A program made the position numbers and the translations under genes. Positions 9,840 through 64,000 of a stretch of 64,000 bases of DNA are shown here, piece by piece; within the stretch, counting starts at the first letter, position 1; every line of letters starts with the position of its first letter. Source of the DNA: Rubrivirga marina (lineage in GTDB: Bacteria; Bacteroidota; Rhodothermia; Rhodothermales; Rubricoccaceae); contig NZ_MQWD01000001.1 of NCBI RefSeq assembly GCF_002283365.1, positions 1,168,202 through 1,232,201 of the forward strand, read 5' to 3'. The notes below the pieces were generated by a model, which was not told where the DNA came from, did no database searches, and saw only the letters and a list, made by a program, of their open reading frames with translations.

Positions 9840-9923
9840 ATGATCGTCGCCCGCCCCACGCTCTCCAGCACCTCGTTTTACTACGGGTATTGGTTTATGC
9901 GTCCGGCGGGCCGGAAGCGCTAG
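9840..9923 (+). CDS. Aromatic-rich attenuator leader peptide
   Basis: 27 codons, ATG at 9840 and TAG at 9921-9923. The peptide is [27 protein letters not shown]: six of seven consecutive codons (9876-9896) specify Phe, Tyr, Tyr, Tyr, Trp, Phe. It is followed after 27 nt by an intrinsic terminator and then by a fused Phe/Tyr/Trp-pathway enzyme. This is the layout of ribosome-mediated attenuation: scarcity of charged aromatic tRNA stalls the ribosome here. It is too short for ordinary gene callers. Confidence 0.88.
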
Positions 9924-9976
9924 GAGACCCTTACCTCCTCGCCTCTTGCAGCCCGCCCTCCCCGGCGGGCTTTTTT
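9905..9976 (+). promoter_or_regulatory. Transcription attenuator (antiterminator/terminator switch)
   Basis: GGCGGGC occurs twice, at 9905-9911 and 9964-9970. Both can pair with GCCCGCC at 9951-9957. The 9951/9964 pairing gives a terminator hairpin followed by six T. The 9905/9951 pairing would be the antiterminator. The first copy overlaps leader codons just after the aromatic block. A ribosome stalled at FYYGYWF leaves it free, while a ribosome at the stop codon covers it. The polarity therefore fits derepression on starvation. Confidence 0.85.
9951..9976 (+). terminator. Intrinsic terminator of the attenuator
   Basis: Stem GCCCGCC/GGCGGGC with a six-base loop, then TTTTTT at 9971-9976, 14 bp before the ATG of the trifunctional enzyme. 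Confidence 0.9.
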
Positions 9977-9990
9977 GTTGCCCCACCCCC

Positions 9991-12015
9991 ATGCCCGACT
10001 CCCCCGACCTCTCGACCCTCCGGTCCGACCTCGACGCCGTGGACCGCAAGCTCGTCGAGGCCCTCGCCGAGCGGCAGCGCCTCGTCTCCGACGTGGCCGC
10101 CGTCAAGGCCGCCGACGGCGCGCTCCCGATCCAGGACCCCGACCGCGAGCAGTCGCTCCTCTCGCGCGTCCACCAGCTGGCCGAGGCGGCCGGCGTCGAC
10201 GGCTACTTCGCGTCGCAGCTGTACCGCCAGATCCTGCGCCACTCGGTCCGCTACCAGGCTGTCCGCCAGTCGGGCGAGGCCGGGCTCCGGGTGGCGTACC
10301 AGGGCGTCGAGGGGTGCTACAGCCACTCGGCCGCGCGCCACCACTTCGCGGCGGTCGACGGCGTGGGGTACCTCGGCACGAGCACGTTCGGCGGCGCCAT
10401 CGAGGCGCTCAAGGGCGGGAAGGCCGACCGCGCGCTCCTCCCGGTCGAGAACACGACGGCCGGGCCGATCTCGGGCGTCTACGACCTCCTCGTCGAGCCG
10501 GGCCTCCACATCGTGGGCGAGGAGGTCCTGAAGGTGGAGCACTGCCTGCTCGGGCTGCCGGGCGCGTCGCTCGGGCACGTCGAGCGGATCGGGACGCACC
10601 CGCAGGCGATCCGCCAGTGCAGCCTGTTCCTGGACGACTTCAAGCACCACGGCGGCCACGTCGACTCGGAGGACGACACGGCCGGGGCGGCCAAGGCCGT
10701 CGCCGAGGCGGGCGACCCCACGCGCGCCGCGATCGCGGGCGAGGACGCCGCCGAGCACTACGGGCTCGAGATCCTCAAGCGGAACGTGGCGAACCGGAAG
10801 GACAACTTCACGCGCTTCCTCATCGTGGCGGCCGAGCCGCTCGCGCACGACCAGCGGCTCCCGCATAAGACGTCGCTCGTGCTCTCGACCGAGCACGGCC
10901 CCGGCAAGCTGGCCGCCGTCCTCCAGGTGTTCGCCGAGGCCGAGGTCAACCTCACCAAGCTCGAAAGCCGGCCGTCGCCCACGACCCCGTTCGAGAGCCT
11001 GTTCTACCTCGACCTCGAGGGCGGCACGCACGAGGACGCGGTCGCCGACGCCATCGAGGCCGCGGAGGCCCACACGAAGTCGCTCCGCGTGCTCGGCTCG
11101 TACCCCGTGTTCCGCGCCGAGACGCCGCGCGCCGCGCTGGGCGTGGCCGCCTCGGGCGACGGCGCGGCGCCCCGGGCCAAGGCCACCGCCCCGCCGAGCG
11201 TCAAGCCGAGTCGCCGGACGCTCGGTGACCGACAGGGCCGGCCGGACACGGTCGTCGAGATCGCGGGCGTCCGGATCGGGGGCGACGAGCCGCCGGTCCT
11301 CATCGCCGGGCCGTGCTCGGTGGAGAGCCGGGACCAGATCTTCGAGTCGGCCCGGGCCGTCCGCGAGGCGGGCGGGCTCATGCTCCGCGGCGGCTGCTTC
11401 AAGCCGCGGACGCTGCCCTACGACTTCCAGGGGCTCGGCTTCGAGGGGCTCGCCATGATGCACGAGGCGGGGCGGCAGAACGGGCTCCCCATCGTGACCG
11501 AGGTGGTCCACCCGAAGGACGTCGAGGCGATCGCCCGCGAGGCCGACGTGCTCCAGATCGGCGCGCGCAACATGCAGAACTTCGAGCTGCTCAAGGAGGT
11601 CGGGAAGAGCCACGCGGCGGTCCTCCTCAAGCGCGGGATGTCGTCGTCCATCGACGAGTGGCTGGCGGCGGCGGAGTACGTCCTCGCCGGCGGCAACGAG
11701 CGCGTGATCCTCTGCGAGCGCGGCATCCGGACGTTTGAGACGGCCACGCGCAACACGCTCGACCTCAGCTCAGTCGTCGTCGCCCGCGAGCGGACGCACC
11801 TCCCGGTGATCGTGGACCCGAGCCACGCGGCCGGCCTCCGGCGCTGGGTCCCGGCGCTCGCGAAGGCGGCGATCGCGGCCGGCGCGCACGGGCTCATCGT
11901 GGAGGCCCACCCGGACCCCGACCACGCGCTCTCCGACGGACCCCAGTCGCTGACCTGGGACCAGCTCAACGAGCTGGCGCGCGAGATCGGCGTGGCGCCG
12001 GCCGTCGCGGCCTAG
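9991..12015 (+). CDS. Chorismate mutase / prephenate dehydratase / DAHP synthase trifunctional fusion
   Basis: 674 residues in four domains. Residues 1-92 are an AroQ chorismate mutase with Arg11, Arg28, Lys39, Arg52/Glu53 and Gln89 matching the catalytic set. Residues 98-280 are prephenate dehydratase with the essential Thr274 in NFTRF. Residues 292-375 are an ACT domain with the Phe-binding ESRP motif (325-328). After a 45-residue Pro/Ala linker, 420-670 is a type I-beta DAHP synthase: AGPCSVES (Cys442), KPRT (471-474), GARNMQN, LLKRGM, DPSHA (His612), Glu638. The protein thus joins the first step of the shikimate pathway to the two steps committing chorismate to phenylpyruvate. ACT binding should give Phe feedback, and the attenuator upstream gives transcriptional control. 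Two-domain fusions are well known; this triple order seems rare. Confidence 0.95.
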
Positions 12016-43945: not shown

Positions 43946-44587
43946 TCAGACCAGCCGCTCGCGGAGCGCCTTCGCCACGACCTCGCCCCGCGTGTGGACG
44001 TGGAGCTTGCCGTACACATTCCGCACGTGGCCGTCGACGGTGTGCGGGCTGAGGCAGAGGGCCTCGGCGATCTGGCGCTTCGTCTGGCCGGCCACGAGGT
44101 GCTGGAGGATCTCCGTCTCGCGCTCCGAGAGGCCGTAGTCGGGTGGCGGCGCGGCGAGCGACGTGAACAGCGTCAGCACGCGGCGGGCGATCTGGGCGTC
44201 CATCGCCGCCCCGCCGGCCCGGACCTCGTCGACGGCCGCGAGGATGGCCTCGGGCGTCGCTGTTTTCAAGAGGTACCCCGACGCGCCGGCGCAGACGGCC
44301 TGGAAGATGGTGTCGGTGTCCTGGTGGACCGTCAGCATGACGACGGGGACGGCCGGCGCTCGGGCCTGGAACACGCGGGCGCCCTCGACGCCGCCCATCC
44401 CTGGCAGCCCGATATCCATGAGCACGGCGTCCGGCAGCGCCCCCGCGTCGAGCGCCGCGAGGGCCTCCTCGCACGACGGGAACGCCGACGCCACGTGCGG
44501 CGGCGCCGCGTCGATCACGTCGGCGATGGTCTCGCGGTAGAGCGCGTTGTCCTCGACGAGCCAGACATGGACGATCGGTTCTGGCAC
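43946..44587 (-). CDS. NarL/LuxR-type response regulator
   Basis: 213 residues. Receiver domain with acidic pocket Glu12/Asp13, phospho-acceptor Asp58 (LMDIGLPGMGG) and Lys in GYLLKTATP. C-terminal LuxR HTH LSERETEILQHLVAGQTKRQIAEALCLSPHTVDGHVRNVYGKLHV. It lies downstream of the PDZ-linked histidine kinase, separated by 110 bp holding a perfect hairpin. The two should form a two-component pair. Confidence 0.92.
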   Translation of the reverse strand: MPEPIVHVWLVEDNALYRETIADVIDAAPPHVASAFPSCEEALAALDAGALPDAVLMDIGLPGMGGVEGARVFQARAPAVPVVMLTVHQDTDTIFQAVCAGASGYLLKTATPEAILAAVDEVRAGGAAMDAQIARRVLTLFTSLAAPPPDYGLSERETEILQHLVAGQTKRQIAEALCLSPHTVDGHVRNVYGKLHVHTRGEVVAKALRERLV

Positions 44588-44622
44588 GGGAGCGGGGACG
44601 GACAGGAGGCACGGTGTCTCCG

Positions 44623-44664
44623 CCGTGTCCTCCTGAGCGGAGCCGCTCGCTCAGGAGGACACGG
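44623..44664. repeat. Short perfect hairpin of the TCCTGAGCG family
   Basis: 17-bp perfect inverted repeat CCGTGTCCTCCTGAGCG/CGCTCAGGAGGACACGG, 8-base loop, between kinase and regulator genes. A collapsed relative of the long hairpin elements; no T-tract. Confidence 0.8.
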
Positions 44665-44697
44665 TAGGGAGGGCGCGCGCGGAAGGACGACGTCGGA

Positions 44698-46962
44698 CTA
44701 AGAAAGGGCCCCGTCGCCGCCCGGGGCCCGGCGCGTTCGCGCCGTTCCGGCCCTGCCCGCCTCGGCGTCCGCGCGGGGCACGTGGAGGTAGACGCGCGTG
44801 CCGGCGCCCGGCCGGCTGTCGACCGTGAGCGTCCCGCCGAGCTGGCCGGCGCGCTCGCGGAGACTGGAGAGGCCGTGTCCGGACCGTGCGTCCGTCGGGT
44901 CGAACCCGCGGCCGTCGTCCTCGACCGTCAGCGCGAGCGCGTCGGGCGACGCGTCGAGGCGCACGCGGACGGTCGCGGCGTCGGCGTGGCGGGCGACGTT
45001 GTGGAGCGCCTCCTTCGTCACGAGCAGGAGGTGGCGGCGGACTTCCATGTCCAGTGGAAGGTCATCCTCCGTTGGCGCCTCGACGGTCCAGGCCACGCCC
45101 GGCAGGAGAGAGCTCGCCGTGTCGCGGAGCCGCTCGGCGAGGTCGCGGAGCCGGTCCGATGACGGGTCGATGGCCCAGACGATGTCGCGGAGGTCGTCGA
45201 CGAGCGTCCGGGCCGAGGCGCTGAGCCGGTCGAGACGGGAGCGGTCGGTCTCGGGCAGCGCGTCGTTGCGGCGGACGAGGTCGCTGAGGACGGCCATCGA
45301 CGAGAGGCTCGCGCCGATGTCGTCGTGGAGGTCGCCGGCGATGCGGAGGCGTGTGTGGGCGACTTCGAGCTCGCGCGCGCTGAGCTCGCGGAGGAGGCGG
45401 AGCCGCTCGGCCGCGCGGTCGTGGCGCCGGCCAAGTTCTGCCAGCAGCGCGAGGTGGTCCTCCGTCAGCTTCGCACCGCTGAGGCGCCGCCCGAGGCGGG
45501 CCGTGCCGGCGTCGCCGAGCGGCACGTGGGCGGCCTCGACGAGCGACGCGTCGAGGCTGACGCCCTCGGTCGAGCGGACGTCGAGGACGCCGGGACGGGC
45601 CACGATCTCGGGCGTCGCGTCGGGGCCGACCGTGCAGCCGTCGAGGTCGAGGCCGTCGCGGATCGTCTCGGCGAGCGCCGCGCGGAGGGCGTCGTCGGTC
45701 TGCGCCGTCTCGACACGCGCATCGAACGCCGCCAGCGTCGCCCGCCGCGCCCGCTCGTGGCGGTTGAACACGCGGTCGATCGACGCGAACAGCCGCCGCT
45801 GGACGGGGACGAGAAGCGCGAAGAGGGCGGCGGCGAGGGCGATGGCGGCCGGCGTCGGGAGCGAGCCGGGCGCCCGGCCGAGCGCGTGCACCAGCCCCCC
45901 CGCGAGCGCGGCGTAGGCGACCACGAGGAGCACGACCGTCGCGCCGTAGGCCAGCCCCGGCGTCACGAACCGGTCGATCCCGAACAGCCCCTCCCGCGTG
46001 ACCGCGATCCCGATGCCGACAGGGATGAGGAGGTAGCTCATCCCGACGAGCGCGTTGACGGTCCCCATGCTCCCGAAGACCGGGAGGCCAGCCGCGCCCG
46101 GGAGCTCCCACAGGAGGAGGTCAAGCGTGGTGTAGGCCGCGACGGCCGCGAGCACCCACGCCGCCTTCTGGCGCGTCCGCTGCGTCGGCGCGCGGGCGAA
46201 CTGGACGACGCACAAGACGAGGACGAGGGCGGCGACCGCCCCCGCGCGGAGGTAGAGCCACGCCTCGGGCACGGATCCGGAGCCGACCGTCCCCACGAGG
46301 AGGGACCCGACGACGGCGCCCGCGACGACGTAGACCGCCACGATCGCCCTCCGCCCCCCGATCCGCCGCGGGAACGACAGCAGCCAGTGGAGGCTGAACG
46401 CCTGGAAGAGCCCCGTCACGACGACGTCCCACGCGAGGTGGAGGTCTTGCATCGAGGCCGTCCACACCAGCGACGGGCCGACGGCGGCGTAGACGGGGGC
46501 CGCGGCGGCGGTCGAGAGCGCGAGCGGGACCATGCCGGGCGCGTCGGGGTTGCGGGAGGCGATCCACCACCCGATCCCGAGGGCTGTCAGCCCCACGCCG
46601 ACGAGCACGACGCGGTACCACGGCAGCCACAGGAGCCGCTGCGCCAGCGTCGGCGACTGGCGGGGCAGGTCGAGCACGAGCGTCCGGCCGCCGCGGACCA
46701 CGCGGATCGACGCGGGTGCCGGCCCCGCCCGCCAGCGCGCGGCCTCGCCGTCCGCCAGTCGGTCGCCGACGCGGAGGCCGGCCGAGTGTGCCGCCGAGCC
46801 CTCGGCGACGTGGGCCACGACGCCGTCCGACGGCACGGCGAACCCGGCGTGGGGCTCCATCGCCAGCCGCACGACGTAGCCGGCCGCCAGCGCGAGCCCC
46901 ACCACGAAGGCGAGGGCGAGCAGCCGGCGGCTGCGGCGGTCGAGCGGGGCCGGGCCGTCCAT
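44698..46962 (-). CDS. Membrane histidine kinase with N-terminal PDZ domain
   Basis: 754 residues. Helix 1 (14-34), then a periplasmic PDZ domain about 40-100 (DGVVAHVAEGSAAHSAGLRVGDRLADG), then about seven to eight helices (110-390). A GAF-like linker leads to HisKA_3 with His546 in DLHDDIGASLSSM. The HATPase_c domain follows (HNVARHADAATVRVRL, VEDDGRGFDP, GHGLSSLRERAGQLGGTL). It phosphorylates the NarL-type regulator downstream. PDZ domains bind C-termini of unfolded or cleaved membrane proteins, so the signal may be envelope damage (inference). The C-terminal 20 residues are encoded by palindrome-like sequence. Confidence 0.9.
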   Translation of the reverse strand: MDGPAPLDRRSRRLLALAFVVGLALAAGYVVRLAMEPHAGFAVPSDGVVAHVAEGSAAHSAGLRVGDRLADGEAARWRAGPAPASIRVVRGGRTLVLDLPRQSPTLAQRLLWLPWYRVVLVGVGLTALGIGWWIASRNPDAPGMVPLALSTAAAAPVYAAVGPSLVWTASMQDLHLAWDVVVTGLFQAFSLHWLLSFPRRIGGRRAIVAVYVVAGAVVGSLLVGTVGSGSVPEAWLYLRAGAVAALVLVLCVVQFARAPTQRTRQKAAWVLAAVAAYTTLDLLLWELPGAAGLPVFGSMGTVNALVGMSYLLIPVGIGIAVTREGLFGIDRFVTPGLAYGATVVLLVVAYAALAGGLVHALGRAPGSLPTPAAIALAAALFALLVPVQRRLFASIDRVFNRHERARRATLAAFDARVETAQTDDALRAALAETIRDGLDLDGCTVGPDATPEIVARPGVLDVRSTEGVSLDASLVEAAHVPLGDAGTARLGRRLSGAKLTEDHLALLAELGRRHDRAAERLRLLRELSARELEVAHTRLRIAGDLHDDIGASLSSMAVLSDLVRRNDALPETDRSRLDRLSASARTLVDDLRDIVWAIDPSSDRLRDLAERLRDTASSLLPGVAWTVEAPTEDDLPLDMEVRRHLLLVTKEALHNVARHADAATVRVRLDASPDALALTVEDDGRGFDPTDARSGHGLSSLRERAGQLGGTLTVDSRPGAGTRVYLHVPRADAEAGRAGTARTRRAPGGDGALS

Positions 46963-53609: not shown

Positions 53610-54848
53610 ATGGACAGCCCCACGTTCGAAACCGCCGTGCGTCTCGGCCCGCCGTCGGCGGTCGAGCGGGACCTGATGGAGCGTTTGGAGACGCGGCTGC
53701 TCCTGCTGGCGGCCCGGCCCGCTCCGCCGGCCGACCTCGGTGAGCGCGTCGCCCGGTTGGCGCCGGCTGTGGACGCGGAGGCGTTCGTCGGGCTCGCCGC
53801 CGCGCACCGCGTCGTCCCGCACGCGGCGCGGTCGCTCGTCGGCCTCGACGCGGTGCCGGGCGACCTCCGAGATCGGCTCCGGCGGCGCGCGGCGGAGAAC
53901 GCCCGCCGCCAGCTCGCGATGGCCGCCGCGCTCGGCCGCGTGCTCGGCGCGCTGGGCCGGGCCGGCGTCCCCGCGCTCCCCCTCAAGGGGCCGGCCCTCG
54001 CCGCAGCCCTCTTCGGCGACCCGGGCCAGCGGACGAGCATCGACCTCGACGTCCTGGTCGACCCCGGTTCGCTGTTCGAGTCGTTCGCCGCGGTCGAGGG
54101 CGAGGGGTTCGTGGCGAGCGGGAAGGTCCGGGAGCTCACGGCGGCCCAGGCCGCGGTCGTCGCCGCCGAGTTCCGCGTCCACGACGCGGCGTTCTGGCAC
54201 CCGGGTCTCCGTGTCAGCCTCGAACTCCACTGGCGCCCGTTCCGCGACCGACGGCTGACGACGTTGGCGGATGCCCTGACGATGGAGCTCGCCCTCAACC
54301 CGACTGGGCTCGCGTGGCGCGACCGCGCGCTCTCCGCCGCCGAAGCGGCCTACGTCCTCGTCCACGGCGCCGCCCACGGGTACCGCCGCCTCGGATGGCT
54401 CGTCGACGCGGCCGGGCTGGCGGAGCGGCTCAACGAGGCGGCGTGGCGGGAGGTCCACGCGCTCGCCGCGGCCGACGGGGTCGAAGCCGCCGTGCTCCTC
54501 GGGCCGGCGCTCGCACACCGATGGCTGGGCGCGCCGCTGCCGGATGCCCTCCGCCCCCGCGTCGATTCCGAGGCCGACCGCCTCGGTCGCCTCGCGGGGT
54601 GGTGCCTCACGCGCACGCCGGACCGCCCGCGCACGCTGCACCCCGCCACGGTCGCCCTCGGGGCCGCCCTCTACGACCGGTCCGCCGACCGGCTCCGCCA
54701 CGTGTGGCGCCTCCTCACGAGCCCCGCCAGCGGCGAGCTGGCCGAGGTCGACCTCCGGCCCGGCGCCGTGGGCCGCGCGCGGCGTTTGGCCGCCCGCCCC
54801 GCCCGGCTCGTCCGAAACGGCGCGCGGTGGTTCACCGGGAGCCGCTAG
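53610..54848 (+). CDS. Nucleotidyltransferase-family protein (PF14907-like) of the lasso-peptide cluster
   Basis: 412 residues. The nucleotidyltransferase core is at about 118-165: VPALPLKGPALAAALFGDPGQRTSIDLDVLVDPG, with Asp145 and Asp147 as metal ligands. A helical C-terminal half contains YVLVHGAAHGYRRLGWLVDAAGL. Proteins of this family accompany lasso-peptide and related asparagine-synthetase clusters (for example with HPr-kinase-type lasso kinases) and may modify the peptide or a phosphate on it. It converges on the precursor-peptide gene, 6 bp apart. Confidence 0.82.
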   Translation: MDSPTFETAVRLGPPSAVERDLMERLETRLLLLAARPAPPADLGERVARLAPAVDAEAFVGLAAAHRVVPHAARSLVGLDAVPGDLRDRLRRRAAENARRQLAMAAALGRVLGALGRAGVPALPLKGPALAAALFGDPGQRTSIDLDVLVDPGSLFESFAAVEGEGFVASGKVRELTAAQAAVVAAEFRVHDAAFWHPGLRVSLELHWRPFRDRRLTTLADALTMELALNPTGLAWRDRALSAAEAAYVLVHGAAHGYRRLGWLVDAAGLAERLNEAAWREVHALAAADGVEAAVLLGPALAHRWLGAPLPDALRPRVDSEADRLGRLAGWCLTRTPDRPRTLHPATVALGAALYDRSADRLRHVWRLLTSPASGELAEVDLRPGAVGRARRLAARPARLVRNGARWFTGSR

Positions 54849-54854
54849 CGCTGG

Positions 54855-55019
54855 CTAAGACGCGTAGGACTCTGAGGACGGGAAGGTCGTCTCGTCGGCG
54901 AAGGGGAGCCCGCCCGCCTTCGTCTGGTCGAGCTCGATGACGGTGACGGCCGGCGGCGTCCAGGGACGGCGCTCGTCGGTCGGATGCGCGTCGGCGGGAG
55001 GAGTCGTGAGGTCGGTCAT
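54855..55019 (-). CDS. Lasso-peptide precursor
   Basis: 54 residues in a gap with no annotated frame. Leader: RRPWTPPAVTVIELDQTK. Trp20-x-x-Pro23 resembles the aromatic-x-x-Pro motif read by PqqD-like B1 proteins, and Thr33 sits at the leader's penultimate position, as in known precursors such as that of microcin J25 (ends LTK). Cutting after Lys34 gives a 20-residue core, AGGLPFADETTFPSSESYAS. Asp8 and Glu9 of the core can close an 8- or 9-residue ring with Ala1. The C-terminal residue is Ser, the site phosphorylated by HPr-kinase-like enzymes in paeninodin-type clusters. Tyr18 of the core could be sulfated. It lies 150 bp downstream of the cyclase gene on the same strand. Confidence 0.85.
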   Translation of the reverse strand: MTDLTTPPADAHPTDERRPWTPPAVTVIELDQTKAGGLPFADETTFPSSESYAS

Positions 55020-55169
55020 GGAATCCGGGATGACGTTCGGTGTCCGCCAGGAGGACGGTCAGCGAGAGCGAAGGATACGGCGCGGTGGGGAGAGATTCAG
55101 CGTTAGGGTCGACAAACTCTCGGTTTTGTGGAGTCCCACGAGCCGCAGGCGAGGGGTTCAGTTGATCCC

Positions 55170-56900
55170 CTAGGACATGGGAGCGGGTGAGAATCCGTCC
55201 TCGAGCGGCAGATAGGCGAGGGCGTGGAAGCCCCTCGGTTCGATCGGCCCCGGCGCGTTCAGCCAGTCTCGGAGAGCCGTCCGGAGGGCGTCGAGCTCGA
55301 CCCACTCGGCGCGGTCGCCGACGACCTCGGGGACGAGGCGGGGCACGAGCGCGGCGAGGGCGGGGGTCCGCTCGCGGCGGCTATCGGCGAGCCAGTGGGG
55401 CTCGGCCTTGCTCGCGTGGAGGCGGACGGCGTCGGGGACGAGGTCGGCGCCGGCCGCGCGGAGCGGCCAGCGGCGGAGCCCGTCGCGGGTGAGCCACGCC
55501 TCCGCCGGGAGCCCGCCGACGAGGTCGAGGACGCGGCGGTCGAGGAGCGGGTACCGGTACCGCACGCCGAACGGGAGACCGGCCAGGGCCCATGCCCCCG
55601 TGCGGTCGCCGAGGTGGCCGCGTCGCATCAGCCAGCCGAGGAGCGCGTGCGGGTCGGCGGGCATCGGCTCGACCTCCGGGAGCGTGGCCCGGCGGAGGAG
55701 GTCCGGGCGGGCGAACGTCGCGTGCTCGCCTCGGAGCGCGGCGTCGCGGAGGTCGTCGAGCGTCGGGGCGAGTCCGAGGCGGGCGCGCTTCGTGCGCTGG
55801 GCGCGGAGGCGGCGGAGCGCGCGGACCGGGTCGCGGGCGATCATCGCGACGACCGCTCGCCATTGTCCCTGGCGGAGGAGCGCTCCAGGAATCGTGCCTC
55901 GGCCGGAGAAGCTGGCGGCCTCGTCGCCGCCCCACCCGGAGAGAAGCAGGCGGACGCCCCGTCGTCGGGCCTCGCGCCGCACCGGCGCCTCCGGCGCCCA
56001 CATCACGTGGGGCTCCCGCGTCGCGTCGAGTGCGAGGCCGGCCGCGAAGTCGGCCTCCGCTGCCGGGCACCACGACACGTCGAGGCCCCAGCACTCGGCG
56101 ACGGCGGCGATCCGGTCGTGCTCGGGCGAGCCGTCGGCCCCAGGCGCCGGCTGCCACGAGAACGCCGCGGGCGCCCTGCCCGCCTCGGCGAGCGCGTGGG
56201 CAGCGAACGCCGCGACCGTGCTCGAGTCGAGCCCCGCGGAAAGATGGACGCCGACGGTGCCCGGGTCCGCGACGGCCTCGGCCGTGACCTCGCGAAGGAC
56301 GGCCGCCAGCGCCTCGCCGATCTCCTCCACGCGGCGGAGCCCGAGCCGCGGCGCGTCCTCGATCCGCCAATACGCGGAGACCTGAGTCCCTCGCTCACTC
56401 GCCGTCAAGCGGTGTCCGCCCGGCAGGAGGTCGATGGCGCGGACGCACGTCCGCCCGACGGACGACGGCCGGAACTGGCTCGTGAGGAAGACGGCCGCCA
56501 TCACGTCCTCGTCGAGGGCGTCCGGGACGCCGGCCGCGAGCACCTCGCGGACGTCGCCGCCGACAACGAGGCGGTCGCCGCGATCCGCGTAGACGAGCGG
56601 GCAGATCCCAGCCGGGTCGCGCGCGGCGACGACCGCCTGGCGGTCTCCGAGCCACGCCGCGAACGCGAACGCGCCGCCGAGGTGGGCCGGCGCGTCGGCG
56701 CCCCACTGGCGGAGCGCGGCGACGAGGAGCGCGGCGTCGGGCTCAGTCGCGGGGAGGCCGAGCGCGTGACCGAGGCGAGCGCGGTCGGCGAGGTCGAGGT
56801 CGGCGTAAAGGACGTGGACGCCGGCCACGCCCCGCCAGTCGCCGAGGCGGACGTCGGCGTCGGCGGCCGGGCCGACGACGGGTGCGTCGCCAGGGCGCAC
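55170..56900 (-). CDS. Lasso cyclase (asparagine synthetase-like)
   Basis: 576 residues from a GTG at 56898-56900 that shares one base with the stop of the upstream gene (TAGTG). N-terminal class-II amidotransferase-like domain (APAHLGGAFAFAAWLGDRQAVVAARDPAGICPLVYADRG) without the Cys2 nucleophile. The synthetase domain has PP-loop SAGLDSS at 221-227, then LLLSGWGGDEAASFSGRG and YRYPLLDRRVLDLVGGLP. In lasso pathways this enzyme adenylates the Asp/Glu side chain of the core and closes the macrolactam. An asparagine synthetase role is less likely given the neighbouring B1, B2 and precursor genes. Confidence 0.9.
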   Translation of the reverse strand: MRPGDAPVVGPAADADVRLGDWRGVAGVHVLYADLDLADRARLGHALGLPATEPDAALLVAALRQWGADAPAHLGGAFAFAAWLGDRQAVVAARDPAGICPLVYADRGDRLVVGGDVREVLAAGVPDALDEDVMAAVFLTSQFRPSSVGRTCVRAIDLLPGGHRLTASERGTQVSAYWRIEDAPRLGLRRVEEIGEALAAVLREVTAEAVADPGTVGVHLSAGLDSSTVAAFAAHALAEAGRAPAAFSWQPAPGADGSPEHDRIAAVAECWGLDVSWCPAAEADFAAGLALDATREPHVMWAPEAPVRREARRRGVRLLLSGWGGDEAASFSGRGTIPGALLRQGQWRAVVAMIARDPVRALRRLRAQRTKRARLGLAPTLDDLRDAALRGEHATFARPDLLRRATLPEVEPMPADPHALLGWLMRRGHLGDRTGAWALAGLPFGVRYRYPLLDRRVLDLVGGLPAEAWLTRDGLRRWPLRAAGADLVPDAVRLHASKAEPHWLADSRRERTPALAALVPRLVPEVVGDRAEWVELDALRTALRDWLNAPGPIEPRGFHALAYLPLEDGFSPAPMS

Positions 56901-59900
56901 TAGCGCTCTCGCCGGATGGTGTGGCGCGCGCCGGCCGCCAGGTTTTCTACCCGCGTCGTCCTGCCCGTCGGCCAGCGGACCTCGACCTCGGCGGCCTCGG
57001 CCTCCGCGCCCAGCCCGAAGTGCGCGATCGGCTCGTCGAACGAGAGGAACCCGCCGCTCGCCTGGACCTCGCGCATCATCGTCCGCCCCGACGGCGTGCG
57101 GACCGTCACGACCGCGCCGACGCCGAACGGGTTCTGGCCGGTCTCGTCGCGGAGCGCGATCTGGAGCGCGTGCCCGCGCGCCTCGTTGCGGTACACGTCG
57201 ACCGGGCCGAGCGCGGTCGGGACCACGAGGTCGAGGTCGCCGTCGCGGTCGAGGTCGACGCGGCTGGCGGCGAAGGTTGGGAGCCACGAGCCGAGGCCAA
57301 CCGCCTCGGTCACGTCCTCGAACCGGCCGTCGCCGAGGTTGCGGAAGAGGCTGTTGCGGTGGCTCCGGCGGCTTAGCGGCGAGCCGGCGACCGAGAACAG
57401 GTCGAGCCAGCCGTCCTGGTCGAAGTCGTTGAAGCGGGCGTCCCATGTCCAGGCGGTCCGGTCGAGCCCGACCGTCTCGGCGATGTCGGCGTAGCCGTCG
57501 CCGTCACGCCGGAGGAGGACGTTGTGGAGGCCGCGCTTGTCGGGGATGGCCTCGGCCGCCTCGGCGTCGGTCACGGGCGCGACGGGCTCGTCGTAGGCCG
57601 CGCAGAGGCGCCGGTGGAGCGGCCACCGCGGGCCGACCTCGCGGCACGCGCTCGCGTCGTCGCGGGCCGAGCGGCGCTTGAACACGAGGTACGTCGCCAC
57701 GCAGCCCTGCCGCGCGACGGCGTCCGCCAGCTCGAGGCACATCGCCGGGTTCTTGTCCACCTGCGCGTCGAACGTCGTCGTCGCGGTCCGGTGTGCGGCC
57801 TCGCAGGCGGCCCGCTGCAAATCGGGCCGGTCGGCGCAGGCGTCGGCCGGCGAGAGGATCGGCGAGAGCGTCTGCGACGGCGAGATCTGGGCGACGAACA
57901 CCTCGGGCACGAGGTCGTTGTCGAGGTCTGCCGAGGCGAGGCTCATCGTCGTGATCGTCGAGTGCGGGACGACGCCCTCGGAGTGGAGGAGCTGGCGGAA
58001 GCCGCCCCGGCCGTCGCCCTCGTACAGCACGTCCGGCGCGTTGAAGTCGTTGCCGACGAACAGGTCGAGGTCGCCGTCGCCGTCGAGGTCGGAGAGGAGC
58101 GTCGAGAGCGTCTCGCCGGGCGTGGCCGGGAGCGGGCGGAGCGCGAAGGCCCCGCGCCCGCCCTCGTTCGTGAGGATCGCGTCCCGCGCGCTCTCGAACG
58201 ACGACCGGACCTCCGGGTGGCCGGGCCGGCGGGCGTTGAGCGCGGCCGTGTTGCCGAGGACCACGTCGAGGTCGCCGTCGCGGTCTAGGTCGCCGAAGGC
58301 GAGCGACGTCGTCCAGTAGGCGCCCTCGACGTTGAGGAGCACCGCATGGCCCGCCTCGGTGAACGCGCCGCCGTCGTTGTAGACGACGTGGTTGCCGCCG
58401 CCGATGGTCGCAACGACGAGGTCGAGCGCGCCGTCGCCGTCGAGGTCCACGAGCGCGGCGTTGCCCACGCGCGCCGAGTCGAGCGCCGGCACGGCCACAT
58501 CTTGCCGCACGTACCGCTCGCCGCCGACGTTGGCGTAGAGCCCGACGCCGGCCTCCGACGTGAACACGAGGTCCGCCCACCCGTCGCCGTGGACGTCGCC
58601 CGAGGCCGCGGCGCGGTTCATCATTACGCCCGTGAGGTAGCGGTTCGGGCTCTCGTTGCTCGGCTCGTCGATCCCGAGGTCCGGCCCGAACAGGTGGGTG
58701 AACGCGGGGGCGACGGCCTCGCCGCCGACGGCCGCCAACGCAAGCGTCTCGACCGATCCGCCCTCGGCCGACCGTCGCTCGCCGGGCCCGGTGGCGAAGG
58801 GCGCGATCAGCGCCGCGACGCGGTCGGCGGAGAGCGCCTCCGTGGGGAATGCCGGGCGCGCGACCGGCTGGTCGCCGGCGTCCGCGAAGGCCTCGACCAC
58901 GGCCGCCTCGGTGCGGGCGTCGAGGCGGGGCTGGACGAGCGCCGTCGTCCACCCGGCCGCGAGCCCCAGCGCGGCCACGCCGAGGTAGAGGCCGATGGCG
59001 GTCGGCCGCGACATCGTCCGCCAGATCTGGAGGAGCGGGTACGCGCTGAACAGCCCGAGCGTCACGAACATCACGGCCACGTAGGGCAGCGGGACGCCGG
59101 CCGCGCCGAGGATCGCGCAGATGATGACGTCGAAGGCAATGGGGCACGGGAGGAACGCGCCGAGGAGCGCCACGCCGCCCAGCGCGAGGAGCGCCCGCGT
59201 CGTCGCCCGGCCGACGTCGAGCGCCGGCAGGCCCTCCGACAGCGACTCCCACGGGACGAGCGTCACGGCGATCGCGCCGAGCAGGCCCGCCAGCGCCATC
59301 AGCGGGACCGTGGTCTTGACGATGTACCACAGGTTGCGGGCGAGCGCGCGGACGGTCCAGCCCGCGGCGTCGAGCCACGAGGCGGGCTCCGGGTCGGGGC
59401 CGGTCGCCTCGGCGAGGGCGGGTGCCGCGGGGAGCTCGGGGCCGAGCGTCGGGCCGGCCGGCGCCAGCTCCGCGGCGGTCGGTGCGAGGGCGTCGGAGGG
59501 CCACAGCACGCGGACGAGCAGCGGGACGGCGAACACGATGAACGCGAGCGTCATCCCCAGCTTCAGCCCGGCCAGCCACACGGGGAAGAGGGCGAACGTC
59601 ATCGACAGGACGACGACGTTGAGCGTGGGCGACGACAGCATCGCCGCGAGCGTCGTCTCGCCGCGCGCGCCGCCCTTGTGCAATCCCTCCGCGATGGGCA
59701 CGGCGCAATTGACGCACACGCCGAGCGGGGCGCCCATCGCCACGCCGAGGAGCGTCCCCGTCATCCGCCCGCGCGGCCGGATCCGCGTCACGAGCGGCAG
59801 GATGGTGAGGACGATCCCCGCGAACAGGACGCCGAACGTCATGCCCTGGCGGTTCGTCGCGGCCCAGTTGAGGGCGTTCGCCCCGATCCGCTCCAGCGCC

Positions 59901-60103
59901 GAGCCCGCCGGGTCCACCTCGACGACGCGCGTGAACGCGAGGCCCTCCACGTCGGCGTCGCCGCCCATCATCGCCTTCTCGTTGAGCGACGGGTACCGCG
60001 AGCCGGTCCAGAACGCGAACGCCGTGACGAGGAGCAGGAGCGCCGTCAGTACCAGCCGCTTGTCGATGCGCCGGGGCTGTGGGAGGGCGAGGACGGAGGA
60101 CAT
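56900..60103 (-). CDS. ArsP/UPF0718-like permease fused to FG-GAP repeats and an ASPIC/UnbV domain
   Basis: 1067 residues. Residues 1-400 are a permease with paired helical blocks: MGAPLGVCVNCAVPIAEGLHKGGARGETTLAAMLSSPTLNVVVLSM, and AFLPCPIAFDVIICAILGAAGVPLPYVAVMFV. The Cys-containing Gly/Pro motif is as in UPF0718. Residues about 480-970 are FG-GAP/VCBS repeats with Ca-binding loops (DLDGDGALDLVV, DLDRDGDLDVVLGN, DFDQDGWLDLF). The last 100 residues are ASPIC/UnbV (GVGAVVTVRTPSGRTMMREVQASGGFLSFDEPIAHFGLG). It is upstream of and one base overlapping the lasso cyclase, so the two are translated together. An export or receptor role for the peptide is possible. The repeat domain should face outside the inner membrane. 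Confidence 0.85.
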   Translation of the reverse strand: MSSVLALPQPRRIDKRLVLTALLLLVTAFAFWTGSRYPSLNEKAMMGGDADVEGLAFTRVVEVDPAGSALERIGANALNWAATNRQGMTFGVLFAGIVLTILPLVTRIRPRGRMTGTLLGVAMGAPLGVCVNCAVPIAEGLHKGGARGETTLAAMLSSPTLNVVVLSMTFALFPVWLAGLKLGMTLAFIVFAVPLLVRVLWPSDALAPTAAELAPAGPTLGPELPAAPALAEATGPDPEPASWLDAAGWTVRALARNLWYIVKTTVPLMALAGLLGAIAVTLVPWESLSEGLPALDVGRATTRALLALGGVALLGAFLPCPIAFDVIICAILGAAGVPLPYVAVMFVTLGLFSAYPLLQIWRTMSRPTAIGLYLGVAALGLAAGWTTALVQPRLDARTEAAVVEAFADAGDQPVARPAFPTEALSADRVAALIAPFATGPGERRSAEGGSVETLALAAVGGEAVAPAFTHLFGPDLGIDEPSNESPNRYLTGVMMNRAAASGDVHGDGWADLVFTSEAGVGLYANVGGERYVRQDVAVPALDSARVGNAALVDLDGDGALDLVVATIGGGNHVVYNDGGAFTEAGHAVLLNVEGAYWTTSLAFGDLDRDGDLDVVLGNTAALNARRPGHPEVRSSFESARDAILTNEGGRGAFALRPLPATPGETLSTLLSDLDGDGDLDLFVGNDFNAPDVLYEGDGRGGFRQLLHSEGVVPHSTITTMSLASADLDNDLVPEVFVAQISPSQTLSPILSPADACADRPDLQRAACEAAHRTATTTFDAQVDKNPAMCLELADAVARQGCVATYLVFKRRSARDDASACREVGPRWPLHRRLCAAYDEPVAPVTDAEAAEAIPDKRGLHNVLLRRDGDGYADIAETVGLDRTAWTWDARFNDFDQDGWLDLFSVAGSPLSRRSHRNSLFRNLGDGRFEDVTEAVGLGSWLPTFAASRVDLDRDGDLDLVVPTALGPVDVYRNEARGHALQIALRDETGQNPFGVGAVVTVRTPSGRTMMREVQASGGFLSFDEPIAHFGLGAEAEAAEVEVRWPTGRTTRVENLAAGARHTIRRER

Positions 60104-60233
60104 ACGCGGAGCCGAGCGTTCCGGGCGAGATCACGCCCCGACGGACCACGGGGCGGCCGAAGATAGGCCGGTCTTTCTGCACCTTTGTTATCGTGGGGAT
60201 GCAGGGTTTCGGGCGCCCGCCCGCGCCCGCGAT

Positions 60234-61106
60234 CTACCGTGCGAGTCCGTCCACCTCGGCGACGAGGCGGGCGTAGCCGAGGCGCTCCATCGCCGCGCGG
60301 TGGTCGGCCACGACGCGGCGGGCCTGGGCCGGCGTGAGCTCGTCGCGCCACGAGCCCGACGTGCCGCGGCGGAAGAACGGGGCCTCCGCGAAGTCCGGCC
60401 GCTCGCGGAAGCCCTCCTCGGCCTCGCGCTTCCGGAGCCGCTCGAACCGCGCCGCCTCGACCGACCGGCGGACGCGGTCGGGGTCCGGCTCGACGCCGCA
60501 GAAGCGGAGGGCCTCGGCGAACGTCCCGGCCGTGTCGACGAGGAGGTCCTCGTAGCGGACGACGTGGGCCGGCACGCCGGGCGCGTCGAGCCACGACCGG
60601 ACGTGCCCGCTCCACGAGCGGAGCGGCTCGGGCAGGACGCCTAGGAACCGGCCGCGCAGGCGGTTCAGCACGTACGCCTCGTCGGCCAGCACCTCGATGG
60701 CCCGGTCCACGGTCCACCCGAAGAACGGGGCCGTCGAGGCCGCCACGTCGAGCGGGTTGCGGACGACGTAGAGCGCGCGGCCGGCGCCGGCCGGGAAGAC
60801 TCGGTCGCCCCCGGCGGTCTCGACGTTCGCGCTGTGGACCTTCCCGAAGGTCGGGAGGTCGCGGGGGGCCACGTCGCGGGCGAGGAGCCGTGAGGCGGCC
60901 GGCCGGAAGGCCAGGATCTCGTCCTTGAGGAGCAGCGACGTGTCGACGCCGAGGAGGTCGTCGAGCGAGCGGAGGCCGGTGATCTGGACGCTCTTCCCGA
61001 GGTTGTTGAGGTCGAAGACGCCCTCGCCGAAGTAGCCCGCCAGGAGCGCCCGCGTCCACGTGTTGCCGGACTTCGGGTACGACGCGAGCCAGACGACCTC
61101 GGCCAC
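60234..61106 (-). CDS. Sulfotransferase of the lasso-peptide cluster
   Basis: 290 residues. PAPS-binding 5'-PSB loop YPKSGNTW at 10-17, 3'-phosphate motif YVVRNPLDVAAS, and the C-terminal loop FFRRGTSGSWRDELTP. It transfers sulfate from PAPS to a hydroxyl. In this cluster the target could be Tyr18 or a Ser/Thr of the lasso core, or a lipid. It is 1 bp from the kinase stop and belongs to the kinase-B1 transcript. Confidence 0.9.
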   Translation of the reverse strand: MAEVVWLASYPKSGNTWTRALLAGYFGEGVFDLNNLGKSVQITGLRSLDDLLGVDTSLLLKDEILAFRPAASRLLARDVAPRDLPTFGKVHSANVETAGGDRVFPAGAGRALYVVRNPLDVAASTAPFFGWTVDRAIEVLADEAYVLNRLRGRFLGVLPEPLRSWSGHVRSWLDAPGVPAHVVRYEDLLVDTAGTFAEALRFCGVEPDPDRVRRSVEAARFERLRKREAEEGFRERPDFAEAPFFRRGTSGSWRDELTPAQARRVVADHRAAMERLGYARLVAEVDGLAR

Positions 61107-61107
61107 G

Positions 61108-62055
61108 TCAGCCCTCGGCCACGGCCGCCAGCTGGCGCTCGATGGCGTCGGCGACGGCCTCGACCGTCTCGCCGGGCGTCGGCCGGTCGAGCTGAACGAT
61201 CGGGACAGCCCCCGCCAGCCGCGCGGTCCACGCGAAGTGCTCGGCCTGGAGCCCGGCCCCGTTCACCATCCGGCGGCGGTACGTCTGGAGGAGGAGGGCC
61301 TGCACGGCGTCGTGCGCCCCCAGCCGCTCGGCCCGAATGGCCGGGGCGTCGCCGCTAGAGGCCGTTGATCGGTAGGCGTTCAGGACCACGACGAGCCGGA
61401 GGGGCGCGGGCTCCGACCGGAACGCGGGCGCGCGGTAGAGATACTTCCGCCGGCCCTCCCGGAGCGGCGCGAGGTCGTCCGGCGCTTCGCCGAGGCGGAC
61501 GACGGCGTCCTCCCACAGCCGGAGCGTGGGGTAGCCCGAGAGGACCTCCGGCCCGGCGTCGCCGAAGTGGACGACCGTCTTGTCGTCGCTGAGGACGGGG
61601 TGCCCGCGGTGGGCCAGCTCGGCGAGCGTCGTGCTCTTGCCGGCGCCCGAGACGCCGGCCACGGCCACGGCCCCGTGCTCGGTCGCCACGGCGCACCCGT
61701 GGAGCACGAACATCTGCCGCTGGTGGAGCACGGCGCCCAGCGTCGAGCCGAACAGGAAGGCCCGCACGTCGGCGTCGGTCCCGCCGGTCGGCTCGACGAC
61801 CACCTCGCGGCCGTCGTCGTGGACGAGGTAGCGGGCCACGCCGGGGATCTCGTGGCGCCACGCGCCCGGCCGGGCCGCCCACGTCACGCGCTGCTCCCGT
61901 GGCTCGCCGATGCGGTCGGGCACGGCGCCGCGCACGACGCGGAGGTCGGGCGCGGTCGCGGCCACCTCGGGCGGCGCCTCGCCCAACTCGGGGAGCGGCC
62001 AGTCCGACGCGACGTGGAGCCCGTAGGCGACGTAGTGATGCGGGGCGTCGCTCAC
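61108..62055 (-). CDS. HPr-kinase-like lasso-peptide kinase
   Basis: 315 residues from a GTG overlapping the PqqD-like stop (GTGA). Walker A GVSGAGKST at 134-142, then LSDDKTVVHF (acidic HprK motif), and LHGCAVATEHGAVAVAG before it, as in serine kinases of the HprK family. In paeninodin-type clusters this enzyme phosphorylates the C-terminal Ser of the precursor; the precursor here also ends in Ser. Confidence 0.88.
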   Translation of the reverse strand: MSDAPHHYVAYGLHVASDWPLPELGEAPPEVAATAPDLRVVRGAVPDRIGEPREQRVTWAARPGAWRHEIPGVARYLVHDDGREVVVEPTGGTDADVRAFLFGSTLGAVLHQRQMFVLHGCAVATEHGAVAVAGVSGAGKSTTLAELAHRGHPVLSDDKTVVHFGDAGPEVLSGYPTLRLWEDAVVRLGEAPDDLAPLREGRRKYLYRAPAFRSEPAPLRLVVVLNAYRSTASSGDAPAIRAERLGAHDAVQALLLQTYRRRMVNGAGLQAEHFAWTARLAGAVPIVQLDRPTPGETVEAVADAIERQLAAVAEG

Positions 62056-62336
62056 GCCGGCTCGATCATGCCGCGGTCGAGGAGGTCGGCGAGGAAGGCC
62101 CAGGTGGCCGCCTCTGCCTCGGCGGGCTCGACGGCGAAGTGGCGCGGGAGGTCGGCGGCGATCTCGGCCGGCGTCGCCGGCGCGTCGAGGAGGCCCCATA
62201 TGTGCGTGCCGACCTCGTTGAGCCCGTAGTACTGGCCGCCCTCGACGTCGAGCATCACGGCCGTCCCGTTGACGTCGGCGTGCATGGCGCGGTCGGACCG
62301 GCGGAGTGGGGTGTCGGGTGGGAGAGTGGTGGGCAT
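62052..62336 (-). CDS. PqqD-like lasso precursor-recognition protein (B1)
   Basis: 94 residues. VNGTAVMLDVEGGQYYGLNEVGTHIWGLLDAPATPAEIAADLPRHFAVEPAEAEAATWAFLADLLDRGMIEPA is a complete PqqD fold, which binds the leader and delivers the precursor to the B2 protease. First gene of the minus-strand operon with kinase and sulfotransferase. Confidence 0.92.
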   Translation of the reverse strand: MPTTLPPDTPLRRSDRAMHADVNGTAVMLDVEGGQYYGLNEVGTHIWGLLDAPATPAEIAADLPRHFAVEPAEAEAATWAFLADLLDRGMIEPA

Positions 62337-62414
62337 CGCGAAGAGGGACGGAGGACGAACCTAGCTCGAACTGGCTGCCCATAGGAACGGGGCGCGGCGT
62401 TTCGTGGGATCATG

Positions 62415-62434
62415 CGACCGGCTTCAGTCGGTCG
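62415..62434. promoter_or_regulatory. Inverted repeat between divergent B1 and B2 genes
   Basis: CGACCG (62415-62420)/CGGTCG (62429-62434) with an 8-bp spacer in the 182-bp divergent gap. Possible operator; weak. Confidence 0.25.
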
Positions 62435-62518
62435 AAACAAGGCCGTGGTCTGCGACTGGCAGAGCGTGGGGAGGCGCCGCGGTGCCGGGCGTACCATGCC
62501 GCGTCCGCCCGCTCTCCC

Positions 62519-62983
62519 GTGCTGCTGCCCCGGTTTCGAGGCGCCCTCCGCCTGTCCCCGTCCGAGCTCGCCCGCGTGGTCGAGGCGGTCGTGCTGTTCC
62601 ACGGGTTCAGGGTCGCGCTCCGCGTCGTGTCGGGCGCGCGGCTCGTGCGGTGGCTCGGCGCACGTGGGCCGCAGGACACGCCGCCCGAGGCGCTGCCGTC
62701 GGGCGTCGTCGAGGTCCGGCGGGCGCTGCGGCGGGCGAGCCGGCGGCACGCCAACACGTGTCTCGCGCAGGCGCTCGCCGGGCGCGTGATGCTCCGCCGC
62801 CGCGGCCTCCCGTCCACGCTCTCACTCGGCGCGCGGAAGGAGGGCGAGCGGCTGGCCTTCCACGCGTGGCTCCGGGCGGGCGGGCTGCTCCTCAACCCCG
62901 GCGGTGGCCCGCGCGACTACGCCGTACTCGCCACGTTCCACGACGCGCCCCGCCTCGACGACCGCGCGACCGAGGCGGGCTAG
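62519..62983 (+). CDS. Lasso-peptide B2 protease (transglutaminase-like)
   Basis: 154 residues from GTG 62519, the only start in frame that gives family length. The pattern FRGALRLSPSELARVVEAVVLFHGFRVALRVV, then Cys81 in ANTCLAQALAGRVMLRRRGLPSTLSLG, His115 in LAFHAWLRAGG and an Asp near 133, matches the B2 superfamily (PF13471). It cleaves the leader from the precursor. Divergent from the rest of the operon and overlapping the convergent MFS gene by 4 bp. Confidence 0.88.
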   Translation: MLLPRFRGALRLSPSELARVVEAVVLFHGFRVALRVVSGARLVRWLGARGPQDTPPEALPSGVVEVRRALRRASRRHANTCLAQALAGRVMLRRRGLPSTLSLGARKEGERLAFHAWLRAGGLLLNPGGGPRDYAVLATFHDAPRLDDRATEAG

Positions 62984-64000
62984 GCCGGGGCGGGCCGAGC
63001 GTCCGGCGGTTCCAGGTCTTCGAGGCTGCCGAGGCGCCGGAGGGGCGGCCAGATCGCCGCCGCCGCCGCGACCGTCACGAGCGTCAGCACGCCGCCCAGC
63101 GCGACGGTCGCCACGCTCCCGATGAGGCTTGCGACGACGCCCGACTCGAGCTCGCCGATCTCGTTGCTCGTCCCGATAAAGACGGCGTTGACGGCCGCCA
63201 CGCGCCCCCGCATCGCGTCCGGTGTGAGGAGCTGGAGGACCGTCGACCGGATGACGACCGAGACGTTGTCGGCCGCGCCGATGCAGAACAGGGCCGCCAG
63301 CGAGAGCGGGTAGCTCGTCGAGAGGCCAAACACAATCGTTGCCAGCCCGAACGCCGCGACGGCGACGAGGAGGGCGCGCCCGGCCTTCCGCATCGGCGGG
63401 AGAAGCGCAAGAGCGAGGCCCATCGTGATCGCCCCGAGCGACGGCATCGCGCGCATCCACCCGAACCCCGTCGCGCCGACGCCGAGCACGTCAGTCGCGT
63501 AGACCGGCAGCAGCGCCACGGCCCCGCCGAACAAGACGGCCACCATGTCGAGCGTGATCGTCGAGAGGATCACCGGCTGGCGGCGGACGAATCGCGCGCC
63601 CTCGATGAGGCTCGCCCATGACCGCTTCTCGGTGCTCCGTGCCTGCGGTGTCGGCACGACGAAGAGGAGGCAGCCGAACAGGACGAGGCTGGAGGCCGCG
63701 TCGAGGAGGTAGACCACGCCTGGGCTGTAGACCGCGAGGAGCACGCCGCCTGCGAGGGGGCCGAGCGTGGCCGAGAGCTGGAACGCCACGCTCCGCCACA
63801 TCGCCGCGTTCGCGAAGACGGGCGCCGGCACGAGCCCGGTCACGATGGCCTGCGCCGCCGGCCAGCCGACAGCCCGGAAGGTGCCGGTCCCGAGCAGGAA
63901 CGCGTACGTCAGAGCGATCGGGCCGTCCGTGAACGAGACCCACGCGAGTCCGACGCCGGACAGCGCGAGGCCGACCTGTGCGATCTGGATGAGCCCCTTC
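62980..64000 (-). CDS. MFS transporter (MFS_3/EntS-like), 5' end outside the window
   Basis: The frame is open to the window edge (about 339 residues seen, beginning KGLIQIAQVGLALSGVGLAW). It has at least eight membrane segments, WRSVAFQLSATLGPLAGGVLLA and LLTPDAMRGRVAAVNAVFIGTSNEIGELESG, typical of EntS-like exporters. It may export the lasso peptide because no ABC exporter is seen in the cluster, but it could also be unrelated. Confidence 0.85.
   Translation of the reverse strand, partial: KGLIQIAQVGLALSGVGLAWVSFTDGPIALTYAFLLGTGTFRAVGWPAAQAIVTGLVPAPVFANAAMWRSVAFQLSATLGPLAGGVLLAVYSPGVVYLLDAASSLVLFGCLLFVVPTPQARSTEKRSWASLIEGARFVRRQPVILSTITLDMVAVLFGGAVALLPVYATDVLGVGATGFGWMRAMPSLGAITMGLALALLPPMRKAGRALLVAVAAFGLATIVFGLSTSYPLSLAALFCIGAADNVSVVIRSTVLQLLTPDAMRGRVAAVNAVFIGTSNEIGELESGVVASLIGSVATVALGGVLTLVTVAAAAAIWPPLRRLGSLEDLEPPDARPAPA

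Follow-up and report, generated by a model that had tools for sequence, protein, structure and literature searches.

A biosynthetic gene cluster of Rubrivirga marina, very probably one for a lasso peptide, lies in a stretch of 64,000 nucleotides (contig NZ_MQWD01000001.1, positions 1,168,202 to 1,232,201); this whole stretch is called the window below, and all positions refer to it. Our analysis confirmed that the cluster is genuine, with best bounds at 53610-62983. At its left end, a nucleotidyltransferase gene of the NTP_transf_5 family (PF14907, 135.7 bits with a cut-off of 31.2; 53610-54848, plus strand) is convergent with a minus-strand frame encoding the predicted lasso precursor of 54 residues (54855-55019). 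The minus strand further carries an asparagine-synthase-like lasso cyclase of 576 residues (55170-56900; Asn_synthase 84 bits, cut-off 21), a 1067-residue fusion combining an ArsP_1-like permease, FG-GAP repeats and an ASPIC/UnbV domain in one frame (56900-60103), a sulfotransferase of the PAPS (3'-phosphoadenosine-5'-phosphosulfate)-dependent type with 290 residues (60234-61106; Sulfotransfer_1 84.2 bits, cut-off 22), an HPr-kinase-like peptide kinase with a GTG start (61108-62055) and B1, a PqqD-like leader-recognition protein (62052-62336; PqqD 66.9 bits, cut-off 23.4). B2, a transglutaminase-like leader peptidase (62519-62983, plus strand), is divergent from B1, and its start is uncertain, the frame being open from 62306. 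Transcription of the minus strand runs from B1 through the kinase, the sulfotransferase, the fusion and the cyclase to the precursor. The kinase start overlaps B1 by 4 nucleotides, and the most likely start of the cyclase, a GTG at 56900, overlaps the stop codon of the fusion, so that this run looks like one operon. A preliminary description of this DNA had placed these eight genes at the same positions; profile matches for the enzymes and a leader profile for the precursor bear this out, and the start of the cyclase had to be corrected.

To rank the frames of the window, we used a leader profile containing no seed from this order (15 seeds left, one of them from the same phylum). The precursor frame, whose GC content at third codon positions is 0.89, came first among 784 frames with 23.4 bits, the next one scoring 7.9. 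This rank, together with a precursor of 43% identity in the corresponding cluster of a congener, indicates that the frame is more than a chance one. The predicted core, AGGLPFADETTFPSSESYAS, follows Thr(-2)-Lys(-1), as the Thr(-2) rule has it, and the junction DQTK/AGGLPFADE displays the leader motif, the Thr at -2 and Glu9, with Asp8 as a second possible acceptor. The precursor ends in a Ser, which is Ser20 of the core. The precursor core of the congener (genome G048, locus L034) is TGTQDFSSESSFPNDQRYAS; both cores have 20 residues, align without gaps and have G2, F6, E9, F12, P13, Y18, A19 and S20 in common. Because position 8 differs between them, Glu9 is the likelier ring acceptor.

The cyclase aligns to the amidotransferase profile only from profile position 50 onward, the N-terminal end of the domain being missing, and no Cys adjoins the start of the protein, which argues against a glutamine-using asparagine synthetase. 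Its translation keeps the SAGLDSS motif, presumably the ATP site. B2 exceeds the cut-off of the curated lasso B2 model (NF033537, 70.7 versus 33 bits). On the other side, the cyclase reaches 149.5 bits against the curated lasso model NF033535, whose cut-off is 525, and B1 reaches 58.5 bits against NF033536 (cut-off 80) while passing that of PqqD. Despite its low score, NF033535 is the top-scoring NCBIfam model for the cyclase, and its cut-off marks the subset named by NCBI, not the whole class. The earlier statement that the core enzymes define a lasso peptide is thus supported, and we regard the assignment as very probable.

The congener holds the full set in near synteny. Its minus-strand order is B1, kinase, sulfotransferase, cyclase, precursor and fusion, the latter having moved while staying in the run, and its copies are 64% (nucleotidyltransferase), 65% (kinase), 77% (B1) and 65% (B2) identical to those of the window. 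It has two cyclases, 56-58% identical to the one studied here. The second (58%) lies about 90 kb from the full cluster with its own precursor ending in NFYVS (locus L035, frames 8413-8601 and 8800-10506; core near GGAAPKNNENPNFYVS). When the surrounding 20 kb were searched by tblastn with the proteins of the window, no further cluster gene turned up, and this cyclase and precursor are perhaps served in trans. Within the order, the cyclase was matched at E 0.001 or better in 58 of 114 genomes; ordinary asparagine synthases may be among these matches. The loci retrieved around the stronger matches often contain kinase and nucleotidyltransferase genes.

For comparison, we gathered 196 loci, of which 142 have both kinase and cyclase, and 89 of these 142 also have a sulfotransferase. 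At least three places are doubled among the 196 (L233/L239, L185/L235 and L186/L211); the only doubled pair in the precursor counts is L233/L239, entered as two loci without Tyr. Precursors were located by the leader profile, which leaves the tail unmodelled. This search found no precursor in several loci, for example in G018, where the contig ends upstream of the kinase, and the tail counts omit loci without a precursor above the score limit.

The match of the kinase to Hpr_kinase_C is weak (23.2 bits, cut-off 33.3), but its translation nonetheless holds LHGC...GVSGAGKST...SDD, that is, the His, GxxGxGKS and Asp-Asp motif set. Papers are cited here for the parts of their text that were accessible. 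The motif is the one named as catalytic for lasso kinases (PMC10368454), and published lasso kinases phosphorylate the C-terminal Ser of the linear precursor (PMC8498205); one lasso-peptide kinase, which tells against such a site here, targets Ser3 instead (PMC10368454). Among precursors scoring at least 9, a C-terminal Ser is present in 65 of 77 from loci with kinase and sulfotransferase and in 12 of 20 from loci without a sulfotransferase. The kinase motifs and this Ser support the phosphorylated lasso peptide proposed in the preliminary description, and we consider it quite likely that Ser20 is the residue phosphorylated. In an Armatimonadetes locus with kinase and sulfotransferase (L102), none of four tandem precursor-like frames ends in Ser, so the kinase there would have to act elsewhere.

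In the sulfotransferase, the PAPS motifs SYPKSGNTW and RNPLD...S and the Lys-x-His pair (K89, H91) are invariant in all five sequences aligned; we take them to be the 5'-phosphosulfate-binding, 3'-phosphate-binding and K-x-H motifs, respectively. Compared with solved structures, it is closest to Teg14 and Teg12, which sulfate glycopeptide antibiotics; SULT enzymes and StaL come next. The genome holds two strong adenosine-5'-phosphosulfate kinase domains, so PAPS can be made. With the binding motifs intact, the earlier suggestion of a possibly sulfated product stays plausible, although no site is proven, and we rate sulfation of the peptide as likely.

A species-wide contig scan with the sulfotransferase alignment returned at least 583 relatives, and the best 80 loci were analyzed. 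These contain the kinase in 72 cases, B1 in 58, the cyclase in 55, B2 in 41 and the nucleotidyltransferase in 34; the cyclase occurs with B1 or B2 in 47 and with both kinase and nucleotidyltransferase in 28, all being lower bounds since many loci end at contig ends. In 67 of the 80, the sulfotransferase is immediately preceded by the kinase, at a distance of at most 300 nucleotides and with a median of 12 nucleotides from kinase stop to sulfotransferase domain. Several of the 13 loci without such an upstream kinase are also without any lasso gene. The records, mostly metagenome bins, come from Proteobacteria, Acidobacteria, Chloroflexi, Bacteroidales, Verrucomicrobia, Armatimonadetes, Actinomycetes, a cyanobacterium, Bacillota and others, so related kinase-sulfotransferase gene sets are spread over many bacterial groups. 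In a sample of the phylum, the sulfotransferase was matched at 1e-12 in 7 of 395 genomes and is rarer than the kinase and the nucleotidyltransferase. Locus inspection, from which G061, G066 and G319 were left out, placed it among lasso genes in G000, G203 and G329; G048 and G018, outside this list of seven, also carry it among lasso genes. Two tandem sulfotransferases in G065 (L054, 9035-10798) are 30-33% identical to that of the window, with no lasso genes in 19 kb.

The tail of the precursors offers a candidate site for the sulfate. Among loci whose precursor scores at least 9 and ends in Ser, 28 of 57 with a sulfotransferase and 1 of 11 without have a Tyr at -2 to -7 (Fisher p 0.018, which ignores relatedness). 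In 64 different Ser-ending precursors from kinase and sulfotransferase loci, positions -3 to -5 have Tyr at 30 of 192 sites, compared with 18 of 1152 at -8 to -25, so that Tyr is concentrated 2-4 residues before the C-terminal Ser; the 12 precursors without a sulfotransferase have it at -2 once and at -3 to -5 never. Two further loci, L035 and L191, have a near-end Tyr without an adjacent sulfotransferase, and their genomes hold one elsewhere; they stand outside the counts, since no cyclase is seen in the stretch of L191 and no kinase in that of L035.

Several points weigh against Tyr as the acceptor. A near-C-terminal Tyr is missing in 29 of the 57 sulfotransferase loci with a Ser-ending precursor, including G203 and G329 of the same phylum, so that Tyr does not hold as a strict indicator of the sulfotransferase. 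The Fisher p spans 0.007 to 0.49 over eight settings. A tree of 67 kinases has 4 changes of the sulfotransferase and 14 of Tyr, with only 3 or 4 independent pairs, so that the link is inseparable from descent. Moreover, paeninodin ends in HYDS, and no sulfotransferase is known in its cluster, which would make Tyr no marker of sulfation. The placement of Tyr is a bias and not a rule, and that Tyr18 is the sulfation site is, on this comparison, an evenly balanced proposition.

A Pseudomonadales contig (L167) has seven precursor-like frames around kinase and sulfotransferase, all seven ending in Ser and carrying a Tyr at a distance of 5 to 7 residues from the C-terminus. The precursor of G203 (L052, 9090-9269) lacks the Thr at -2 and possibly has an Ile there, as in a Bradymonas leader reported to have Ile(-2) (PMC10368454).

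The permease part of the fusion has hydrophobic segments between residues 17 and 390 and a CVNC motif. It passes the gathering cut-off of ArsP_1 (PF03773) marginally (34.3 versus 32.3 bits); among five relatives scanned, three reach this cut-off (46.8, 34.7 and 32.3) and two stay below (28.0 and 29.6). The SO_0444 Cu/Zn efflux model NF033936 is not reached (26.4 bits, cut-off 300), and an AlphaFold2 model built from 4 sequences has a mean pLDDT (confidence score) of 48, with the permease part under 50. Both halves occur in one frame in 8 of the 196 loci: that of the window (L003), that of the congener (L034), five from Sphingomonadales (L138, L145, L188, L189 and L190) and one from Acidobacteria that is cut by a contig end (L109). 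All eight have kinase, sulfotransferase, a precursor with a near-end Tyr and CVNC in the permease part; Tyr is thus present in 8 of 8 versus 20 of 49 other sulfotransferase loci, a comparison uncorrected for relatedness in which five of the eight are Sphingomonadales. Among 80 Sphingomonadales genomes, the fusion is found in 6 of 14 with the kinase and in none of 66 without a kinase match at 1e-25, and 5 of these 6 lie within the lasso locus. In the order of R. marina, with six candidates scored per genome, it is full length in only G000 and G048 of 114 genomes.

A plasmid search with the permease part returned 8 records, all from roseobacters or near relatives (L254-L261), each with a near-full-length fusion match, one of them split in two frames, and C[VA]NC is kept. 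The flanks fetched for these eight gave no match to the other profiles of the cluster (kinase, cyclase, B1, B2, nucleotidyltransferase and this family of sulfotransferases), which led us to reject the fusion as a lasso-only protein. Its plasmid neighbors are mostly SEL1-repeat, tail-fibre-like or immunoglobulin-like proteins, or polysaccharide genes, and 3 of the 8 flanks have annotated sulfotransferases of another kind. The fusion is thus a separate family, recruited by some lasso clusters. It recurs in six further sulfotransferase-bearing lasso loci but is not lasso-specific. The same six loci (L138, L145, L188, L189, L190 and L109) share Asp/Asn beta-hydroxylase-like and glycosyltransferase-like genes, named by eye; a second, different sulfotransferase-like gene is present in L138 and L109 and was matched in others of the six. 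An FG-GAP repeat protein borders the Bradymonas lasso cluster (PMC10368454).

As for other transporters, no ATP-binding cassette (ABC) transporter was recognized in the cluster or among the window genes scanned, a scan that covered part of them. Near fusion-bearing loci, one was named by eye in L188 and matches were obtained in L109 and L145, so the fusion does not simply stand in for such a transporter. A major facilitator superfamily (MFS) transporter gene, which extends past the window edge, had been counted as part of the cluster. It is 90% identical in the congener, compared with 43-77% for the cluster genes, and 79-89% identical in the relatives G046 and G050, where about 1.5 kb on each side holds no cluster gene and no sufS; for this reason we set it aside as probably a neighbor. 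A LuxR-type response regulator and a histidine kinase are encoded at 43946-46962, about 7 kb from the cluster.

From the genes and their order, the motifs, the conservation, the recurrence of the kinase-sulfotransferase pair and the position of Tyr, we infer a pathway in which B1 would bind the leader of the 54-residue precursor and the kinase would phosphorylate Ser20 of the linear core. The nucleotidyltransferase may then elaborate this phosphate, as reported for pseudomycoidin, where the nucleotidyltransferase decorates the phosphate with one or two hexoses (PMC8498205). The sulfotransferase, encoded by the cistron right after the kinase, would sulfate a tail hydroxyl with PAPS, most likely that of Tyr18; B2 would cleave after Thr-Lys, and the cyclase would link Ala1 to Glu9. 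The fusion could be a membrane-anchored partner at the envelope, for export, binding or self-protection. The most likely product is AGGLPFADETTFPSSESYAS with a predicted ring from A1 to E9, a phosphorylated Ser20 and, less surely, a sulfated Tyr18. Taken as a whole, a lasso biosynthesis operon with Ser20 phosphorylation, Tyr18 sulfation and an envelope fusion partner is the explanation we prefer, by a modest degree of belief.

Other explanations were weighed against it. The sulfotransferase might act not on Tyr but on an added sugar or phosphate or on a Ser/Thr hydroxyl, Tyr being kept for reasons of the kinase or the fold. The 29 loci of 57 without Tyr are in its favor, the side-by-side position of kinase and sulfotransferase in 67 of 80 loci would suit two enzymes acting in turn on one site, and a nucleotidyltransferase is there in 34 of 80; yet 46 of these 80 show none, many being cut by contig ends, and the enrichment of Tyr at -3 to -5 in sulfotransferase loci, well beyond its frequency elsewhere in the precursor and with 0 of 12 in precursors without a sulfotransferase, is left to be accounted for. 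We see this as a real but less probable alternative. It is very improbable, by comparison, that the cluster is no lasso system but a peptide-modification system of the HPr-rel-A type with an asparagine-synthase-like enzyme and a short frame that is not its substrate. The resemblance of the kinase to HprK-related kinase A would suit it, but the score against TIGR04352 is 31.9 bits with a cut-off of 200; cyclase and B1 do fall below the curated lasso cut-offs, whereas B2 lies above its own, the glutaminase domain of the cyclase is missing its start, the leader, Glu9 and the C-terminal Ser are conserved in the congener, and the precursor frame ranks first of 784.

The fusion, for its part, could be an unrelated resident gene of the operon serving surface proteins or polysaccharide, as its eight plasmid homologues with their SEL1-repeat, tail-fibre-like or Ig-like neighbors might suggest. 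Against this, it stands within the operon of both congeners (G000 and G048) at two different positions and is full length in no other order genome among the six candidates scored per genome, it goes with the kinase in Sphingomonadales (6 of 14 versus 0 of 66, 5 of the 6 in the lasso locus), and the other-kind sulfotransferases in three roseobacter flanks leave a tie to sulfated products possible. We find an unrelated gene rather unlikely and lean slightly toward a fusion that handles the peptide. Were the preferred explanation right as to Tyr, tyrosine sulfation, which is known from few bacterial peptides, would extend to lasso peptides, and the permease-propeller fusion would be a candidate for handling such peptides at the membrane. 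A wider proposal, of a widespread unrecognized class of doubly charged lasso peptides, with Tyr sulfate and Ser phosphate placed on one and the same tail by a fixed kinase-sulfotransferase pair, one branch of which has a CVNC permease-propeller handling an anionic, perhaps metal-binding knot at the envelope, is speculative and we doubt it.

The preliminary description held that the tailoring set matches no known pathway. The permease/FG-GAP fusion is indeed unusual and recurs with such clusters, but a unique set of three tailoring families had to be rejected: the families are in print and the kinase-sulfotransferase pair is widespread. An HPr kinase and a sulfotransferase were noted in lasso clusters of anaerobes in 2014, their role being unclear (PMC4289311), and a review records that a sulfotransferase and a nucleotidyltransferase were noted in Firmicutes lasso clusters in 2016 (PMC8498205). 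The literature searched, outside of which most subscription journals lie, yielded no description of a sulfated lasso peptide; the accessible part of one paper mentions sulfation in general terms only (PMC12325987). The locus is thus a lasso cluster with an already noted but uncharacterized tailoring set and a recurrent, uncharacterized membrane partner. The adjacency in 67 of 80 loci turns the 2014 remark into a question, namely which near-C-terminal residue takes the sulfate.

Compared with known systems, the cluster is like those of the paeninodin type in its precursor, leader-processing and cyclase genes, its HPr-kinase-like kinase and its Ser-ending precursor, but it adds the sulfotransferase, the nucleotidyltransferase and the permease-propeller fusion, and no ABC transporter was recognized in it (PMC8498205). 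With pseudomycoidin it shares kinase and nucleotidyltransferase next to lasso core genes and a C-terminal Ser; it differs in having the nucleotidyltransferase on the opposite strand, in the added sulfotransferase and fusion, and in its phylum (PMC8498205). The clusters of anaerobes and Firmicutes have the same tailoring pair of HPr kinase and sulfotransferase, to which our comparison adds adjacency of the pair and the Tyr/Ser bias of the tail (PMC4289311, PMC8498205). Finally, a Pontixanthobacter paper lists B2, nucleotidyltransferase, sulfotransferase, a PqqD protein and an asparagine-synthase-related protein together among halotolerance-linked genes (PMC10040529), apparently the cluster of our locus L138. 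Besides these shared genes, L138 also has the kinase and the permease-propeller fusion; unlike the window, it adds an Asp beta-hydroxylase, a glycosyltransferase and a second sulfotransferase, and in the part of that paper available it is not treated as a lasso pathway (PMC10040529).

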